This document shows positions 14,921 through 22,070 of a stretch of DNA of 22,509 nt, one piece after another. Position numbers and translations under genes: made by a program. The notes under the pieces are model-generated. The model saw only the letters and a program-made list of their open reading frames with translations. It searched no databases and had not been told where the DNA came from. The stretch covers positions 1 to 22,509 of the IMG/VR virus record IMGVR_UViG_3300043397_000004, one strand, 5' to 3'. The number at the start of each line of letters is the position of its first letter. Position 1 is the first letter of the stretch. This DNA comes from a virus.

Positions 14921-15592
14921 TTACATCACCAATGGTTTGTAAGGGCGCAAGAGAGCCTGAACACCCCAAGGAATGTTGTGCTGGATTGGGCCAGTTGTAT
15001 CGCTACGATTGTTATAGAGGTGAGTCAACAACAGCAAACCAGCCTGTTTGATTACGGGATAAGCCGCCAAGGGGTTTGCTGCTGTTGTGTACTCGCAAAT
15101 CACAGGAGCAGTCATTGAGCTGTTCATGTTCGTTGGCAAGTTTGCCACGACAACCTTGTTTCCAGACGGGTCGTAGTAATACTCAGTGACATCTACCGTG
15201 ATTAACTCAGGCGGGTTATTGTCATTCCAGTATCGAACTGCGTCCACAGAAACGCCAGAAAGAATTGGGTCTTGATTCTGGCTTACTTCTGGCAAATCCA
15301 ACGCCAAAGGAGTTCCGTACAAACTTGCAGTGTTGTACCAAACGCGATATGACGTTGGGAAGATTGACATACCAAGGAAGTCCTCGATAGTCATGCGAAC
15401 AGCCAACTCAAGTCCAGATAGGTAAGTGTCTTGGCTTTCGTCACCAAACAGGTTTAACTGATTGGTGATTTCATCCAGAGTCAACCAAGCGGTAGCAATG
15501 TCACGGCTGATTTGCTCTGTCTTTGTATAGTTGAACGGATTGCGCGTTGGCACACCGTAATTCAAGTAACCGAGTTGTGAATCAGCAGCCAT
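14921..15592 (-). CDS. head-tail connector (gp6-like adaptor)
   Basis: This 223-aa protein probably forms the ring that extends the portal after packaging (HK97 gp6 / SPP1 gp15 class). The diagnostic part is the helical segment WLTLDEITNQLNLFGDESQD followed by TYLSGLELAVRMTIEDFLGM (about residues 37-77 of the chosen start), which matches the usual connector pattern of a short LTLDE helix, an acidic loop and a long helix. The C-terminal helix AAYPVIKQAGLLLLTHLYNN fits the same fold, with a beta-rich insertion between. The ATG at 15592 has AAGG 7 nt upstream and starts 13 nt after the previous stop; the longer frame overlaps the capsid paralogue with no better signal. Next come the stopper and terminator genes, as expected. 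Confidence 0.82.
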   Translation of the reverse strand: MAADSQLGYLNYGVPTRNPFNYTKTEQISRDIATAWLTLDEITNQLNLFGDESQDTYLSGLELAVRMTIEDFLGMSIFPTSYRVWYNTASLYGTPLALDLPEVSQNQDPILSGVSVDAVRYWNDNNPPELITVDVTEYYYDPSGNKVVVANLPTNMNSSMTAPVICEYTTAANPLAAYPVIKQAGLLLLTHLYNNRSDTTGPIQHNIPWGVQALLRPYKPLVM

Positions 15593-15605: not shown

Positions 15606-16628
15606 TTAGATACCATCAATCGACAAACGCACACCAGCAAATGGGTCGCGCACTGACGATACCACACGCTTTTCAGCGTAGATGGTTACAAAGCCGGGCT
15701 TAGTTTGCTCAAACATTTGAATGGTCATCTGTTCTTCATCAGCAATGGTCAAAAAGCGATTCCAATTTGCCAAGTAGATTGGGAAATCACCAGACAAATA
15801 TGGGTTAGGAACCACAGGGAAACCAAAGATACGACCAACAGAAGCGCCGTCAGAATCGCCGACCTCTAAGAACAAAGGCAAGCCTTGTGTATCTTTCAGT
15901 TCACGCAAAGACAAAATCATTTCAGGGCGAATATGCCATGCCGTACCATCCAAAGACCAGTATTGGGCTGGAAGGGTAGAGGCCATTGAAACAATTGCAT
16001 CATAGTTAACGGGGTCACCATTCAATGGCACTGTTGCAATTTCATGCAAGCCATTGGTGATTGATGTGCCGCTTGTGCCGTATGAGCTGACTGCTCCCAC
16101 AGGGTAGCTATCAAGTCCGCGCAAACCGTTTGTTGCGCCAGTGGAAGTTGTAGAAGAACCGTCTTGGTCATTATTGATGACCATAGATTGGCCTTCCAAT
16201 TGAGCAAACTCAAGGGCTAAGTCTTCAACAATAGTTGACTCAAGAGCATTTACATCCGACAGAACCGCTGTACGGATTGGCAATTGAGCGGAGAGTACGC
16301 GAACAGGCAATTGCCAAATGGTCGTATCGACATCTGGAGAACCGCTGTTCGGAGTGAATGAGTAACCCCAAGGGTCGGTTGAATCTGCTGCGTTACCAGT
16401 CTTGGCAACCAGCATGAGGTCGGAGCCGTCGATAGGAATCTGACGAGAACCTTGACGTAATGGGTTTGCTTGACGCAAAGCGGCAAACGCATCGTCGAAT
16501 ACAACATTACCACCAACACCCGAACCAGAACCAGTGATTCCAGAGGCTTCTTTCAGGTCAATGGTGACTTTGCCACCTTCGGTAATGGCTTGCTTAATGC
16601 CGTTCAGGATTTTTTCGGTGATAGTCAT
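15606..16628 (-). CDS. second HK97-fold capsid paralogue lacking the delta domain
   Basis: This 340-aa protein is clearly homologous to the preceding major capsid protein. In the 38-residue block beginning LKEAS, about 23 positions are identical. TAVL/TAAL, the NNDQ..S motif, NGLRGL(D/N), the PAQYW/PQQYW segment, and the EKR...SVRDPFA C-terminus also match. Before LKEAS it has only about 24 residues instead of about 104, so the long scaffold arm is absent. The ATG at 16628 is chosen because GGAA lies 6 nt upstream and it falls after the terminator; the longer frame opens with TTG and reads through the terminator hairpin. It could be a vertex (penton) protein, an alternative shell subunit or an inactive duplicate. 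Capsid-fold homology is sure; the role is inferred. Confidence 0.9.
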   Translation of the reverse strand: MTITEKILNGIKQAITEGGKVTIDLKEASGITGSGSGVGGNVVFDDAFAALRQANPLRQGSRQIPIDGSDLMLVAKTGNAADSTDPWGYSFTPNSGSPDVDTTIWQLPVRVLSAQLPIRTAVLSDVNALESTIVEDLALEFAQLEGQSMVINNDQDGSSTTSTGATNGLRGLDSYPVGAVSSYGTSGTSITNGLHEIATVPLNGDPVNYDAIVSMASTLPAQYWSLDGTAWHIRPEMILSLRELKDTQGLPLFLEVGDSDGASVGRIFGFPVVPNPYLSGDFPIYLANWNRFLTIADEEQMTIQMFEQTKPGFVTIYAEKRVVSSVRDPFAGVRLSIDGI

Positions 16629-16647
16629 AGTTATTCCAATGAGAGTT

Positions 16648-16674
16648 AAAAAGATGGGAGCCGAAGCCCCCATC
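16648..16674 (-). terminator. intrinsic terminator after the major capsid gene
   Basis: On the minus strand GATGGGGGC (16674-16666) pairs with GCTCCCATC (16661-16653) across a TTCG tetraloop, giving a 9-bp stem with one G-T wobble, followed by TTTTT (16652-16648). This is a textbook Rho-independent terminator with an extra-stable UUCG loop. It lies 11 nt after the capsid stop and 19 nt before the start of the second capsid-like gene, inside an otherwise continuous same-strand gene cluster. Confidence 0.9.
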
Positions 16675-16685
16675 CAAGGCAACTA

Positions 16686-18029
16686 TCAGGTTGCAGTGCC
16701 AGTCGAGCGATAACGCACGATTGCGAACGGGTCGCGCACCGATGTAGCCAAACGCTTCTCACCGAAGAAGGTGATGTAGCCGGGGGCTGTTTGGTCGTAA
16801 CGACGCATGACCATGTTCAAACGGTCAATGATGGTGTGGCCGCGTGACCAGTCACCGAAGTACATTGGGTACAAGCTGGTTGTGCCAGCAGAGCCAGTTG
16901 TAGCTTGCGATGGGTTGTCCAAATACTTGTTAACCACAACGTCGAAGCCCAACAAGCGACCAACGATGCCGTTTGTTTCCAGAGGAGACATACGTTCGAA
17001 CACAGGAGTGCCGTTGCTGTCTGTCAGACCACGGATTTGAGCCAACAAAACAGGGCTGACGATGAACTTTGCAGATTCAGTCCAGTATTGTTGTGGCAAG
17101 GCGTAGATGAAGTTCACAACGTCTTTGTAGGTGATGTTTGCAGCACCGACAGTGTTCACGTTGGAAGTCAACTGGTCATAGGTAGCCAAGCTGTGCAAGC
17201 CGCTTGTAGAACCAGTACCGCTTGTGCCGAAGGCAGCAGTAGAAGTTGTACCACCAGCATAAGTTGCATTAGCACCAGCATATTGGTTCAAACCGCGCAG
17301 ACCGTTAGAGCCACCGTATGGCAAGCTGGTAGAGCCTTGGTCGTTGTTTTGAATCATTGACAGAGCTTCGGCTTGTGCGAATTCAGCCAACATATCGTCA
17401 ACCACGTTTGCTTCCAAACCGTCGATGTCGTCAAGAGCAGCAGTACGGATAGGGAACTGCACGTTCAAGTCTTGCAAAACCAATTGCCAGATTGAAGTGT
17501 TTTCAGTTGTTGCCGCGCCGTTGTTCTGGATTGCGTAGCCCCATGCAGCACCAGCATTGCCAGTCTTCACACGGAACTGATAGCTAGAACCATCAGTAGC
17601 CACAGTGCGAGACACGCCGCGCATTGGGTTAGCCAAACGCAGAGCAGCAAACACAGGGTCATAAGCAGTACGACCGCCTTTACCATCACCACCGCCTGTC
17701 AGAGCCGAGGCTTCTTTCAGGTACGCTTCCATTTGAGATTCATCTGCAAAAACTTGCAATTGCTTCTCAAGGGTGTTTTTGCCTTCGGCGATTGCTTTGA
17801 GCTGCTCTTTGACAGAACGGTTCACATCTTGGCGAACGCTCTTAGCTTTTTCTTTGTGAACTGCGGCAGCAGGAATAGCGGCAACTTTTGCTTCCAAAGA
17901 TGCAACCATTTCGCTAAACTCGGCTTTAACAGCTTCGATAGCAGCAGGGATTTGGGCTTCAACAGCCACGATGCTCTCAGCTTGTTTAGCTTCGATAGCA
18001 TCCAATTTGTCGATGATTTCTTTTGACAT
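16686..18029 (-). CDS. major capsid protein, HK97 fold, with delta scaffold domain
   Basis: This 447-aa protein is the principal shell subunit. Residues 1 to about 105 form a charged, Ala/Glu/Lys-rich, coiled-coil-prone segment (KLDAIEAKQAESIVAVEAQI, later KSVRQDVNRSVKEQLKAI) typical of the HK97 delta domain, which scaffolds assembly and is then removed. The mature part probably starts near LKEASALTGGGDGKGG (from about 104) and runs through the conserved FAALRLANPMRG, IWQLVLQDLNVQFPIRTA, NGLRGLNQY and EKRLATSVRDPFAIVRY blocks to the C-terminus. It lies 2 nt after the protease stop. An intrinsic terminator begins 11 nt after its stop codon, so it is probably the last gene on the most abundant transcripts. 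Confidence 0.95.
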   Translation of the reverse strand: MSKEIIDKLDAIEAKQAESIVAVEAQIPAAIEAVKAEFSEMVASLEAKVAAIPAAAVHKEKAKSVRQDVNRSVKEQLKAIAEGKNTLEKQLQVFADESQMEAYLKEASALTGGGDGKGGRTAYDPVFAALRLANPMRGVSRTVATDGSSYQFRVKTGNAGAAWGYAIQNNGAATTENTSIWQLVLQDLNVQFPIRTAALDDIDGLEANVVDDMLAEFAQAEALSMIQNNDQGSTSLPYGGSNGLRGLNQYAGANATYAGGTTSTAAFGTSGTGSTSGLHSLATYDQLTSNVNTVGAANITYKDVVNFIYALPQQYWTESAKFIVSPVLLAQIRGLTDSNGTPVFERMSPLETNGIVGRLLGFDVVVNKYLDNPSQATTGSAGTTSLYPMYFGDWSRGHTIIDRLNMVMRRYDQTAPGYITFFGEKRLATSVRDPFAIVRYRSTGTAT

Positions 18030-18031
18030 GA

Positions 18032-18835
18032 TTAACCTTTTAGGCGTTTGTCGAGGAGTTTAAGAAGTTCACGTTGCTCAAGAGCAGCGAGAATTTCCAC
18101 GTTGGTCGCTTCCGCATCAGAATCGCTCTGAGTCGTCGCATTTTCAGTTGGCTCTTGGGCAACATCACGCTGCTCAATCACTTTCTTGAAGGTAGATGCG
18201 GCAGCGACCGCATCTTTCTTGGATAGACCAGCATCACGCAGGGCTTGTTCCAAAACTTTCAGGTCAGCAGTGCCATCAGCTCGGAAATACTCCAGCTTTT
18301 GCACTTCTGCCATTGGATTGTTTGGGTACATCACAACCGACACTTCACGCAATCCACCTTTGGTGATTTGGAAGTAGCCGTCTTCGTATGGGTCATCGGA
18401 ACCGACGGTCATTGGAGTACCGTCTTCTTTTGTCCACTGATATTCTTCGGCGTATGCACCAACAGACACGCCACCAAACATATTTGGCGACTCGCTCATC
18501 ACTTGATACAAATCAGAACCTTGAGTGGTGTTTACATACAAACGACCGCAGGCTTTCATGCCAGTTTCATCAAACTCAAACGATGTCCACTCACCCACAG
18601 GAATGGAATCAGCATCATGGTTCACGAACATTGGGAGAGGACGGCCAGCTTTGCTGAACGCTTCTGCCCATTGCATAAACGCCTCGGGTTGATAGTTGAA
18701 CTTGCGGCCATCAGCGCCTTCGCGTGGCCCCCAAGTTGTGACAACGGCTTCAATATTGCCTGTTGGCTCTGCGTTGTCTGTTTTTTCGAGTACCAGTTTG
18801 GCCTCGCACACCATCATCAAATTCTTTTGCGTCAT
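18032..18835 (-). CDS. prohead maturation protease, HK97 family (U35/S78)
   Basis: This serine protease is packed inside the prohead and removes capsid scaffold (delta) domains before DNA packaging. The 267-aa protein has the family pattern: a His motif FVNHDADSIPVGEW with candidate catalytic H73, a Ser motif FGGVSVGAY with candidate S124, and the conserved LREVSVVMYPNNPMAEV segment (about 162-178). The tail from about residue 190 is charged and probably a self-cleaved, capsid-binding region. The ATG at 18835 has GAGG 6 nt upstream. It lies directly before the capsid gene, as in HK97. Its natural substrate is the first capsid protein, which has a delta domain; the downstream paralogue largely lacks one. 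Confidence 0.93.
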   Translation of the reverse strand: MTQKNLMMVCEAKLVLEKTDNAEPTGNIEAVVTTWGPREGADGRKFNYQPEAFMQWAEAFSKAGRPLPMFVNHDADSIPVGEWTSFEFDETGMKACGRLYVNTTQGSDLYQVMSESPNMFGGVSVGAYAEEYQWTKEDGTPMTVGSDDPYEDGYFQITKGGLREVSVVMYPNNPMAEVQKLEYFRADGTADLKVLEQALRDAGLSKKDAVAAASTFKKVIEQRDVAQEPTENATTQSDSDAEATNVEILAALEQRELLKLLDKRLKG

Positions 18836-18968: not shown

Positions 18969-20366
18969 TTATTTGCCGATGTTCATTTTGCTCTTTTGGT
19001 TGCCGCCACCGCCACCAGTATCTTGAGGGCTTGAGCCTGCAATTGGGTCGGTTGGTTTTGTGTCTTGCTTTAACTCATTACCGCCTTCCATTTGAGCCTT
19101 GCCCAAATATTCACGCGCTTCGTTTGGAGTCAAGATGCCAGCGTCAACACCAGCTTTCACATAATTCATTTGATCGAGTGGAGCGCCCTTCAAGAAGTTC
19201 GCGGTATCGAATTGAATGCTCAGTGATGGGTAGCCATTAAACAATTGCTGTTTCAATTTGTCCTGCACGTTCACGATGGTTGGGTACATCGTTGATTTAT
19301 AGAACTCATCGAGCAATGTCTGAGTGTTGTTGTACTTTTGGTCTTGAATGCCAATCATTGCAGGAGGCACACCAAACAAACCACAAATACGCTTCATGGT
19401 CTGAATCTTCAATTCAGCAGCTTGGGTGTCTTGCAAAGTAAGGATGTCCAAAGGCGTGTATTTCATGCCTTGGTCGAGCAACATACCTTGGCCGGGCTTT
19501 GACTCATCAGTGCGCTGGCTACCAGTCATACTTGACCAAGCCTCTTTCAGACGCGAAGCCAGTTCTTTGTACTTTCCATCAGGGATGACCTGCTCAGTCG
19601 TGAACATACCAGTTGGCTTTGCGCCATTTAGCATGATGAAGTTGGCGTAAACATCAATATCTTGGTCGAGCGTCACCAATTCAGCAGCCAAGATACCTTT
19701 GTTGAAACCAGCCGAACCTTGCCATGCGGCCTCTTTAACGTGCATCACTTGATGGGCCATCAAAGGCTCATCTTTGCTAAAACCGTATGAAGGGGTAGAC
19801 AAACGGTATGAAGGATAACGAGCAGGGTTGATAGTTACGGCAATCAACGTCGAATCCAAAACATACATCTCCATTGGAGTCTGCGATGGGTTCTTTTGGT
19901 CTTCGCGCCACCAGAGGGTAAACGCCTCGCCAGACAATTCCAACCACATGAGCCACTGATACCAAAACTCATATTTTGATTGGAAGTTGTTTGGGTTATT
20001 CAGGAGCTTTGCAACTTGCTTGGCTTTATTCTTATCCCGAACGCCAACAGACTTGTCTTTCACAGCGTCGAGATATGAGCCATCCTCTTGCTCTGACATT
20101 ACCTTGATTGGCAACTGAGCCAATGCACGAGCCTTTGCACCAACGCAAGCCATGACTGTGCTGTTGCGCGTCAACAAGCTCATGTCGATGACGCGACCAG
20201 CAGTATTCGTGCTGGAAGTCGTTACATACAAGACTTGAGTATTGACTGTGGGGCGCGTATTGCTACCCGAATAAACAATGTTGTTACCTAGAGCCGTTTG
20301 GCCGAAAAGGTTGTTGCTTTCGTCCGATTGCGTGGACTTACGTTTGAAAATGTCAAGAATAGCCAT
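18969..20366 (-). CDS. portal protein, HK97 family
   Basis: The dodecameric portal forms the DNA channel at one capsid vertex, docks the terminase and nucleates head assembly. The 465-aa product has the HK97-portal pattern: N-terminal MAILDIFKRK, the conserved block STVMACVGAKARALAQLPIK, and a later RICGLFGVPPAMIG segment followed by NTQTLLDEFYKSTMYP. The C-terminus is low-complexity (GSSPQDTGGGGGNQ). The ATG at 20366 is chosen because AGGAG lies 5 nt upstream; the longer frame begins with a GTG at 20396 without a better ribosome site. It follows the large terminase, the standard order. Its TAA stop directly abuts the ATG of a small ORF. Confidence 0.96.
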   Translation of the reverse strand: MAILDIFKRKSTQSDESNNLFGQTALGNNIVYSGSNTRPTVNTQVLYVTTSSTNTAGRVIDMSLLTRNSTVMACVGAKARALAQLPIKVMSEQEDGSYLDAVKDKSVGVRDKNKAKQVAKLLNNPNNFQSKYEFWYQWLMWLELSGEAFTLWWREDQKNPSQTPMEMYVLDSTLIAVTINPARYPSYRLSTPSYGFSKDEPLMAHQVMHVKEAAWQGSAGFNKGILAAELVTLDQDIDVYANFIMLNGAKPTGMFTTEQVIPDGKYKELASRLKEAWSSMTGSQRTDESKPGQGMLLDQGMKYTPLDILTLQDTQAAELKIQTMKRICGLFGVPPAMIGIQDQKYNNTQTLLDEFYKSTMYPTIVNVQDKLKQQLFNGYPSLSIQFDTANFLKGAPLDQMNYVKAGVDAGILTPNEAREYLGKAQMEGGNELKQDTKPTDPIAGSSPQDTGGGGGNQKSKMNIGK

Positions 20367-20396
20367 ATCGACTCCTAGTTTCCGTGATGTTATCAC

Positions 20397-22070
20397 TCAA
20401 AATAATCGTAGTCCATAGGAGTCTGAAACGAATACGTTATCCAAATGGCAGTGCAAAGCCATAATCATTGCGATTATTCCGTCAACCTTGGCGGACGGGT
20501 CGGCTTCGTTTTTTCTCACTTTTACGTTGCCGTTTACGTCCGTATAGACCTCGCAGTTGCCCAATTGCCATCCCACAAACGGATTTCCGTCATGTTTTAT
20601 AGCCTTCTTGAGAATTAACTGCTCTGCCGTTTTCGACGGGTTGGATAGCACTGCCATACCTTGTCCAACCTTTTTGACTGGAAGGCCATAGGAAAACAGG
20701 TTGGCAACCAAAGCAGCAGCGTTGTAAGGGTCATAACCAATTTCTTTGACTTCATATATCTCAGCCTCTTGTCGAATATAGGATTCAATCTCATTCAAGT
20801 CTGTCACGTTTCCGGGCGTTAGATGCAAGATGCCAGATGCAACAGCCTGACTGAAAATTGACTTGTAATGGTTCGGAATCAGCTCAATCGACTCCTCTGG
20901 CAAGAAGAATTTGAACTTAGCGTACAGGTCTTCCTCGTCATATCGGTGAAGCGTCACCACGGCATTCAAATCTCGACTGTGAGCCAAGTCAAATCCAATG
21001 AATGTGGCCTCTGGCTTATCAACAGGCATTTCAGCCACGGACTCATCCCAATATCGACGGTCAACCCATGCGGCATTAGAGCTGACATAGATATTGAGCT
21101 GTTTACACAAGAATTCATTAAGCGACGCAGGTTTGCTCTTAGCCTCATCCGCCATGTGTTGAATGGCCTCGGTTGTGACCGACACGCCAAGCATAGGGTT
21201 AGCCTTACCCCACACAGCAGGGTCAGACCACTCATCGCCGGGGTCTACGGAATACAGCAGGCCAAACCAACGGAATGAATCTTCCGCCGCTCCGCGCAGC
21301 ACAGCCCGAAAATGGTTCAAGTCCTCATAGAATTTTGTCTCTTTGGTGAAGCTGGCGGTCGTCAGGTACATCCTTAAAGGATTCTTACGAGCAGCCATAC
21401 CTGAGTGCAACACTTCGATTGAGCCGCGCTCGGTAATCTGAGCTGCTTCGTCAATCATCGCGCACGATGGGTTCTTACCGTCACCAGTCTTACGGTTTTC
21501 ACGCGACAGAGCGCGGTAGGTAGATGTGGAATCACCAGCCTTTTTCAGCTCACCTCGAAACGGAATGAATCGGCTTTGCAACTCAGGAACCATACTTTCC
21601 ATGATGGCCTTGGATGAGTCAAAGCAGATTGACGCCTGTTCACGGTTTGTCGCCAAGGTGAACACTTCGGGGCCAGCCTCGCCAAACAGCAGCTCGTACA
21701 AAGCAATGATGGATGCAAGGGTTGTCTTGCCAGACTTTCGAGGCACGAACAAGATAACGTCTGTCACCCATCGAATGCTATGGTCTTTCTTGTTTCGGAA
21801 ACCATACACAGCCGCAAGGAATAGAACCTGAAATCCCTCAAGCTCAATCGACTTGCCTGCGTCCGGCCCTTTTACATGGCGACAGAACTTAGCAAATTTT
21901 AGGATGTGTTCAGCTTTGGCGGGGACGAACTCGTATGGCGCATCTTTGCGCTCAACCATGTCCAAGAATCGCTGGCAAGCAATTTTTACATCCTCACACG
22001 CAATCTTATCGCCACGAACAATGGCAGTTGCGTACTTGAATGCAGGCTCAAGCAGTGTTGAATAGCTCAT
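20397..22070 (-). CDS. terL: terminase large subunit (ATPase/nuclease)
   Basis: This is the packaging motor: it cuts concatemeric DNA and pumps it through the portal using ATP. The 557-aa length is usual for the Terminase_1/HK97-type family. The N-terminal ATPase shows Walker A PRKSGKTT (about residues 110-117), Walker B CAMIDEAA (203-210, with D207 and E208) and a coupling motif MYLTTAS (about 234-240). The C-terminal RNase H-like nuclease starts at FIGFDLAHSRD with D361 as the first metal ligand; GYDPYNAAA and the aspartate in KVDGIIAMIMAL are candidates for the others. It overlaps the small terminase and ends just before the portal gene. All motor and nuclease motifs look intact. Confidence 0.97.
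   Translation of the reverse strand: MSYSTLLEPAFKYATAIVRGDKIACEDVKIACQRFLDMVERKDAPYEFVPAKAEHILKFAKFCRHVKGPDAGKSIELEGFQVLFLAAVYGFRNKKDHSIRWVTDVILFVPRKSGKTTLASIIALYELLFGEAGPEVFTLATNREQASICFDSSKAIMESMVPELQSRFIPFRGELKKAGDSTSTYRALSRENRKTGDGKNPSCAMIDEAAQITERGSIEVLHSGMAARKNPLRMYLTTASFTKETKFYEDLNHFRAVLRGAAEDSFRWFGLLYSVDPGDEWSDPAVWGKANPMLGVSVTTEAIQHMADEAKSKPASLNEFLCKQLNIYVSSNAAWVDRRYWDESVAEMPVDKPEATFIGFDLAHSRDLNAVVTLHRYDEEDLYAKFKFFLPEESIELIPNHYKSIFSQAVASGILHLTPGNVTDLNEIESYIRQEAEIYEVKEIGYDPYNAAALVANLFSYGLPVKKVGQGMAVLSNPSKTAEQLILKKAIKHDGNPFVGWQLGNCEVYTDVNGNVKVRKNEADPSAKVDGIIAMIMALHCHLDNVFVSDSYGLRLF

Follow-up and report, generated by a model that had tools for sequence, protein, structure and literature searches.

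A candidate low-copy shell subunit encoded beside the main HK97-type capsid protein in small freshwater phages

The head module of this virus raises a question: what does a small phage do with two HK97-type capsid genes lying side by side? According to a 2026 review, a phage of ~40 kb makes its T=7 shell with one coat gene, and hexons and pentons are seldom made of different proteins, T4 being the phage example (PMC13185644). The stretch that we analyzed (hereafter the window) is a whole virus record of 22,509 bases. Pfam and PHROG searches identified in it a siphovirus-type head module on the minus strand, in the order TerL, portal, protease, MCP1, MCP2, adaptor; the capsid genes occupy the place expected for them in the order TerL, portal, protease, capsid, adaptor. 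The relevant features are listed below (↓ marks a predicted cut).

20397..22070, minus strand: terminase large subunit (TerL; PF20441/PF03354)
18969..20396, minus strand: portal protein (PF04860, 204 bits)
18032..18835, minus strand: prohead protease, S78 (PF04586, 41.3 bits)
16686..18029, minus strand: MCP1, 447 aa, main HK97-type capsid protein (PF05065)
17712..18029, minus strand: MCP1 residues 1-106, delta/scaffold-like domain (modelled helix and conserved predicted cut site)
16648..16675, minus strand: intrinsic-terminator-like hairpin, GGATGGGGGC-TTCG-GCTCCCATCT and then a T run, in the MCP1-MCP2 spacer (scan for terminator-like sites)
16634..16637, minus strand: GGAA resembling a ribosome-binding site, upstream of the start codon of MCP2 (sequence inspection)
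15606..16628, minus strand: MCP2, 340 aa, second capsid protein, ATG at 16628 (PF05065)
16548..16628, minus strand: MCP2 residues 1-27, short conserved leader ending in L-x-E↓A-S (alignment)
14921..15592, minus strand: head-tail adaptor, the next gene after MCP2 (phrog_40/442 connector)

Kinship and leaders of the two capsid proteins

MCP1 (103.9 bits) and MCP2 (87.4 bits) both matched the PF05065 Phage_capsid family (cut-off 24.2) over most of the model, and both matched the PHROG major head protein phrog_10. They also aligned with one another, by BLASTP (140/360 identical, 39%; E 4e-72) and in a profile-profile comparison (probability 100, 42% identity, 318 columns). These searches agree with the initial annotation, which had described two intact HK97-type paralogues from blocks common to the 447- and 340-residue proteins: the coordinates, lengths and blocks were correct, with NGLRGL and EKRxxxSVRDPFA present in both, and the high identity noted from LKEAS onward amounts to 23 of 39 residues by direct count. 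Acquisition of MCP2 from an unrelated phage was ruled out, as the two proteins are each other’s closest relatives. A readthrough fusion was likewise rejected; in the window, 57 bases separate the genes and they share a frame, but this arrangement is not conserved, because the spacers of most relatives span 50–77 bases, often with a length not divisible by three.

The best solved structural match of MCP2 is the capsid protein of RcGTA, to which residues 141–339 of a low-confidence AF2 model (mean pLDDT 48.8) aligned with a Z of 12.5 (5.3 Å, 166 residues). The models of MCP2 and MCP1 (mean pLDDT 40.2) were built from 21–25 close sequences and are too poor for mapping hexon/penton interfaces. The HK97 and Rhodobacter GTA capsids resemble the present system in their PF05065 fold family, an S78-type protease and a delta-like domain, here on MCP1; they differ from it in that one gene serves both hexamers and pentamers.

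The N termini of the paralogues are dissimilar. In MCP1, 106 residues lie ahead of the predicted cut in [L/M]-x-E↓A-S (LKE↓AS in the window), which qualifies the segment as a delta-type scaffold domain, and a helix covers residues 2–50 of the AF2 model (pLDDT 60–70 there). MCP2 has 27 residues ahead of the cut in L-x-E↓A-S and no helical delta domain of ~100 residues. Counted up to LKEAS, the numbers are 103 and 24 (about 104 and about 24 in the initial annotation). Its statement that only the first gene encodes a scaffold domain stands for the long domain, although MCP2 still carries a short, strongly conserved leader.

The glutamate is invariant in both proteins (E106 in 111/111 distinct MCP1 sequences; E27, together with A28, in 112/112 distinct MCP2 sequences), whereas no such constraint is seen at the x position, a pattern expected of a protease motif. 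[L/M]-x-E↓A is a probable prohead-protease site common to the two proteins; the S78 protease is expected to cut both leaders, and the delta domain of MCP1 is predicted to be cut after E106. The MCP2 leader is probably a propeptide or targeting sequence and likely removable. In T4 and in giant phages, prohead proteases cleave on the C-terminal side of a glutamate preceded by a short motif; T4 gp23 and gp24 are both cut, and the internal head proteins of T4 have short leaders that serve as capsid targeting sequences (PMC5694885, PMC9026906). As a separate observation, MCP2 carries an extra N-terminal domain of ~101 residues in five contigs (L237:5380-6705, L238:5369-6694, L240:2816-4141, L241:5385-6707 and L242). 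It matches phrog_2859 (E 1.9e-29), to which PHROG assigns no function, and is fused ahead of the usual MCP2 leader, whose helix and EAS site are kept, as if it were a passenger carried into the prohead.

Could MCP2 instead build an alternative or size-variant capsid, for other growth conditions or another cargo, without co-assembling with MCP1? It has all of the conserved fold blocks, and the hairpin likely gives it a separate expression level. We nevertheless consider this very unlikely: one portal and one protease are common to both proteins, and MCP2 alone would have no obvious scaffold, because it is devoid of the long delta domain and the head module contains no other scaffold gene. It is also improbable, if less so, that MCP2 acts outside the shell, in head-tail joining or as an internal or decoration protein. 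Such a role would suit a gene that adjoins that of the head-tail adaptor, lies behind the hairpin and shows moderate codon bias; it accords poorly with the full-length PF05065 match, the retained putative prohead-protease site and an identity to MCP1 that extends over the whole fold.

Occurrence, age and selection of the pair

The window belongs to a large set of small lake-water/freshwater phages that carry paired capsid genes side by side. A second case, based on culture, is the isolated Methylophilaceae phage P19250A (KX815270; 38,749 bp), which has both paralogues in the same gene order (63% and 59% identical to those of the window) and a spacer of 77 bases; its first capsid gene is annotated as “GTA capsid”, whereas the second, MCP2, is called “hypothetical”. 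The set grew to 377 loci when viral contigs and contigs from genomes were scanned. In 355 of them, which are not equivalent to as many independent genomes because some share a contig, the end of MCP1 was followed by MCP2, and there was no counterexample among loci that reached far enough; in the 8 loci where MCP1 is complete but MCP2 is missing, the contig ended ≤190 bases past the MCP1 stop codon. The scans retain close relatives first, and distant single-copy relatives may have escaped them. No intermediate single-copy relative was found among 369 genomes of one bacterial class, and each of seven distant phages compared (Marinobacter AS1, Pseudomonas VW-6S, Bcep176 and four others) has one annotated full-size capsid gene. 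Phage Venkman, a reported cluster-mate of P19250A, was rejected as a carrier of the pair: its gene content is podophage-like and includes no such pair. Two loci contain a gene split into two ORFs (MCP2 in L042, 5889-6868; MCP1 in L097, 4494-5843), by sequencing error or real disruption, and one pair (L163, JAHEYD010000010.1) is on a contig binned with a Candidatus Nitrosotalea archaeal MAG, probably a mis-binned phage contig.

In an IQ-TREE phylogeny of 57 proteins, the MCP2s formed one clade (support 95/99) on a long stem (0.95), and the MCP1s one side of a branch (77/98); the root is weak because the outgroups are on very long branches. Each MCP2 grouped with other MCP2s, never with the MCP1 of its own genome. 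This clustering points to a single old duplication that preceded the spread of the family, with most of the change in MCP2. Median dN/dS, calculated from 1027 pairs with unsaturated dS, was 0.124 for MCP1 and 0.121 for MCP2 (about 0.12–0.13). A neutral substitution rate in MCP2, which the initial annotation had named as evidence that would speak against its proposal, was thus not observed; the gene is under purifying selection. The same annotation had entertained a redundant copy under decay, and had argued against it from the intact blocks. That argument is borne out. Relatives with a single MCP show that a second copy is not a general requirement, but a dN/dS of about 0.13, the retention of MCP2 in every locus examined and the age of the duplication exclude decay for practical purposes, and we rejected it.

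Selection has not kept MCP2 uniform. Between the window and locus L018, identities are 93% for the portal, 92% for the protease, 93% for MCP1 and 85% for the adaptor vs. 63% for MCP2. An almost constant MCP1 thus functions with MCP2 proteins that differ considerably. In comparisons with L018, L024 and L017, MCP2 (15606-16628) is the most divergent head-module gene among otherwise near-identical phages. Given a low dN/dS and a dS that is raised as well, the divergence looks like exchange of an MCP2 cassette between close phages rather than fast adaptive change.

The spacer between the capsid genes

Among the terminator-like sites found in the window by the scan, the hairpin between MCP1 and MCP2 has the most GC pairs. 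A hairpin followed by a T run is present in 221 of the 225 distinct spacers among the loci, compared with 24/1125 shuffles, and under a stricter hairpin rule the counts are 194/225 and 3/1125; the remaining 4/225 spacers have the stem with a poor T run. Across relatives, the sequence and length of the spacer vary, while a GC-rich hairpin and then T are retained. Most spacers of relatives also contain a GGAA-like ribosome-binding element. The hairpin is a probable intrinsic terminator; as it lies directly after MCP1, most transcripts would be expected to end there, and MCP2 and the later genes to be made at a lower level.

Codon bias was used as a proxy for expression. In the window, ENC, which is noisy for short genes, was 36.6 for MCP1, 40.3 for a 174-aa product, 44.0 for MCP2, 45.5 for the protease, 46.3 for the portal, 47.5 for the adaptor and 54.0 for TerL; MCP1 therefore has the strongest bias of the genes tested. 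(From its position and size, our guess is that the 174-aa product may be the tail tube.) ENC was lower for MCP1 than for MCP2 in 104 of 107 distinct genomes. The intermediate bias of MCP2 is in keeping with a copy number in the tens.

An ORF of 180–199 aa lies in the spacer, just behind the hairpin, in contigs L036/L152 and L038. These ORFs (L036:5704-6246 and L038:5929-6528) match the homing endonuclease family phrog_314 (5e-15 and 1.7e-15, respectively) in PHROG only, a Pfam search having given no match, and by motif reading they look GIY-YIG-like. The apparent exchange of MCP2 fits a site used by mobile endonucleases. A further observation comes from Rhizobium phage RHph_X2_25 (L175:3525-5721), in which two annotated homing endonucleases are directly behind a single capsid gene.

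Candidate roles of MCP2

In T4, gp24 is a vertex paralogue of gp23, present in 55 copies and also cleaved (PMC5694885). Gene 24 follows gene 23, so that both systems have paralogous genes in the order protease, major, minor; here, too, two paralogues are maintained under selection. The minor paralogue has a leader, cleaved on gp24 and predicted to be cleaved on MCP2, with a glutamate-terminated motif in both. An intrinsic-terminator-like hairpin comes right after the major capsid gene in each case; in T4 it is GGGAACCTTCGGGTTCCC+T6 (GGGAACC-TTCG-GGTTCCC-TTTTTT), shortly after gene 23. Even the homing endonuclease gene in the equivalent spacer has its counterpart: segD, which encodes a GIY-YIG endonuclease, sits as an insertion between genes 23 and 24. 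The differences are also plain. T4 has ~169 kb, a prolate head and separate scaffold proteins, whereas the cultured relative of the window has ~39 kb, and the present system has a scaffold fused to MCP1 and an S78 protease. Even at E values as high as 10, a PDB profile search did not return any T4 capsid chain, and MCP2 is not closer to gp24 than to MCP1. Because MCP2 has no detectable sequence relation to gp24 and its closest relative is MCP1, the split arose separately from that of T4; the resemblance is one of arrangement, not descent.

From gene order, the conserved terminator-like hairpin, codon bias and the T4 analogy, we lean, by a little, toward MCP2 as a dedicated vertex (penton) subunit that assembles on the scaffold of MCP1. 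One shell would then be made of two paralogous HK97-type subunits. MCP1, bearing the covalent scaffold (delta) domain, would form the hexamers, and MCP2, brought in at low copy number, would most likely supply the pentamers at the eleven vertices not taken up by the portal. If a genome of ~38 kb means T=7, there would be 55 copies of MCP2 and 360 of MCP1. Entry of MCP2 would depend on its contacts with MCP1 and on the short leader at its N terminus; each of the two proteins would be cut by the S78 protease at their common [L/M]-x-E↓A site; and the putative terminator would stop most transcripts, keeping MCP2 and the genes that follow at a fraction of MCP1.

Several points weigh against a vertex role. 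A terminator at this place need do no more than favor MCP1 over all that lies downstream, and hence does not specify vertices; the T7 terminator after gene 10 favors the capsid gene over downstream genes. The swapping of MCP2 at a near-constant MCP1 is not obviously compatible with a closely fitting penton, and RcGTA and other relatives with one MCP demonstrate that pentons can be made without a second gene. It is conceivable, though rather unlikely, that MCP2 is a minor shell subunit not limited to the vertices, either mixed into hexamers or confined to the surroundings of the portal vertex, and that it tunes shell size, stability or portal incorporation. The pairing, conservation, hairpin and leader data fit such a subunit equally, and its ready exchange fits a tolerant, substitutable one. 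Two HK97-fold proteins in one shell also occur among Family 2B encapsulins, to go by the title of 9bje; these are cellular compartments with no portal, protease or delta domain, and the match is through the shared fold only. On the other side, the sole well-described tailed-phage precedent that we found for paralogous shell proteins is the hexon/penton split of T4 (PMC13185644). In sum, we consider a low-copy shell role for MCP2, vertex or other, to be probable. The chances are about even for the fuller vertex proposal: that a hexon/penton split evolved independently of T4 in ~38-kb, presumably T=7 siphophages, with copy number set by the conserved terminator, the vertex gene an exchangeable cassette and the spacer an endonuclease insertion site.

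Our literature search, which excluded most subscription journals and did not cover the P19250A genome paper, found no description of paired capsid genes in small phages. Recognizing the second capsid genes of the family would correct annotation, in which they probably go under the label hypothetical; phage trees built on the MCP may also mix up the two paralogues. If the vertex assignment is true, these phages would provide an independent case of hexon/penton separation in a small phage and contradict the view that such phages rely on one capsid gene for hexons and pentons alike. Why and how pentons separate from hexons would become a comparative and experimental question, as there are many natural variants and a cultured representative, P19250A.
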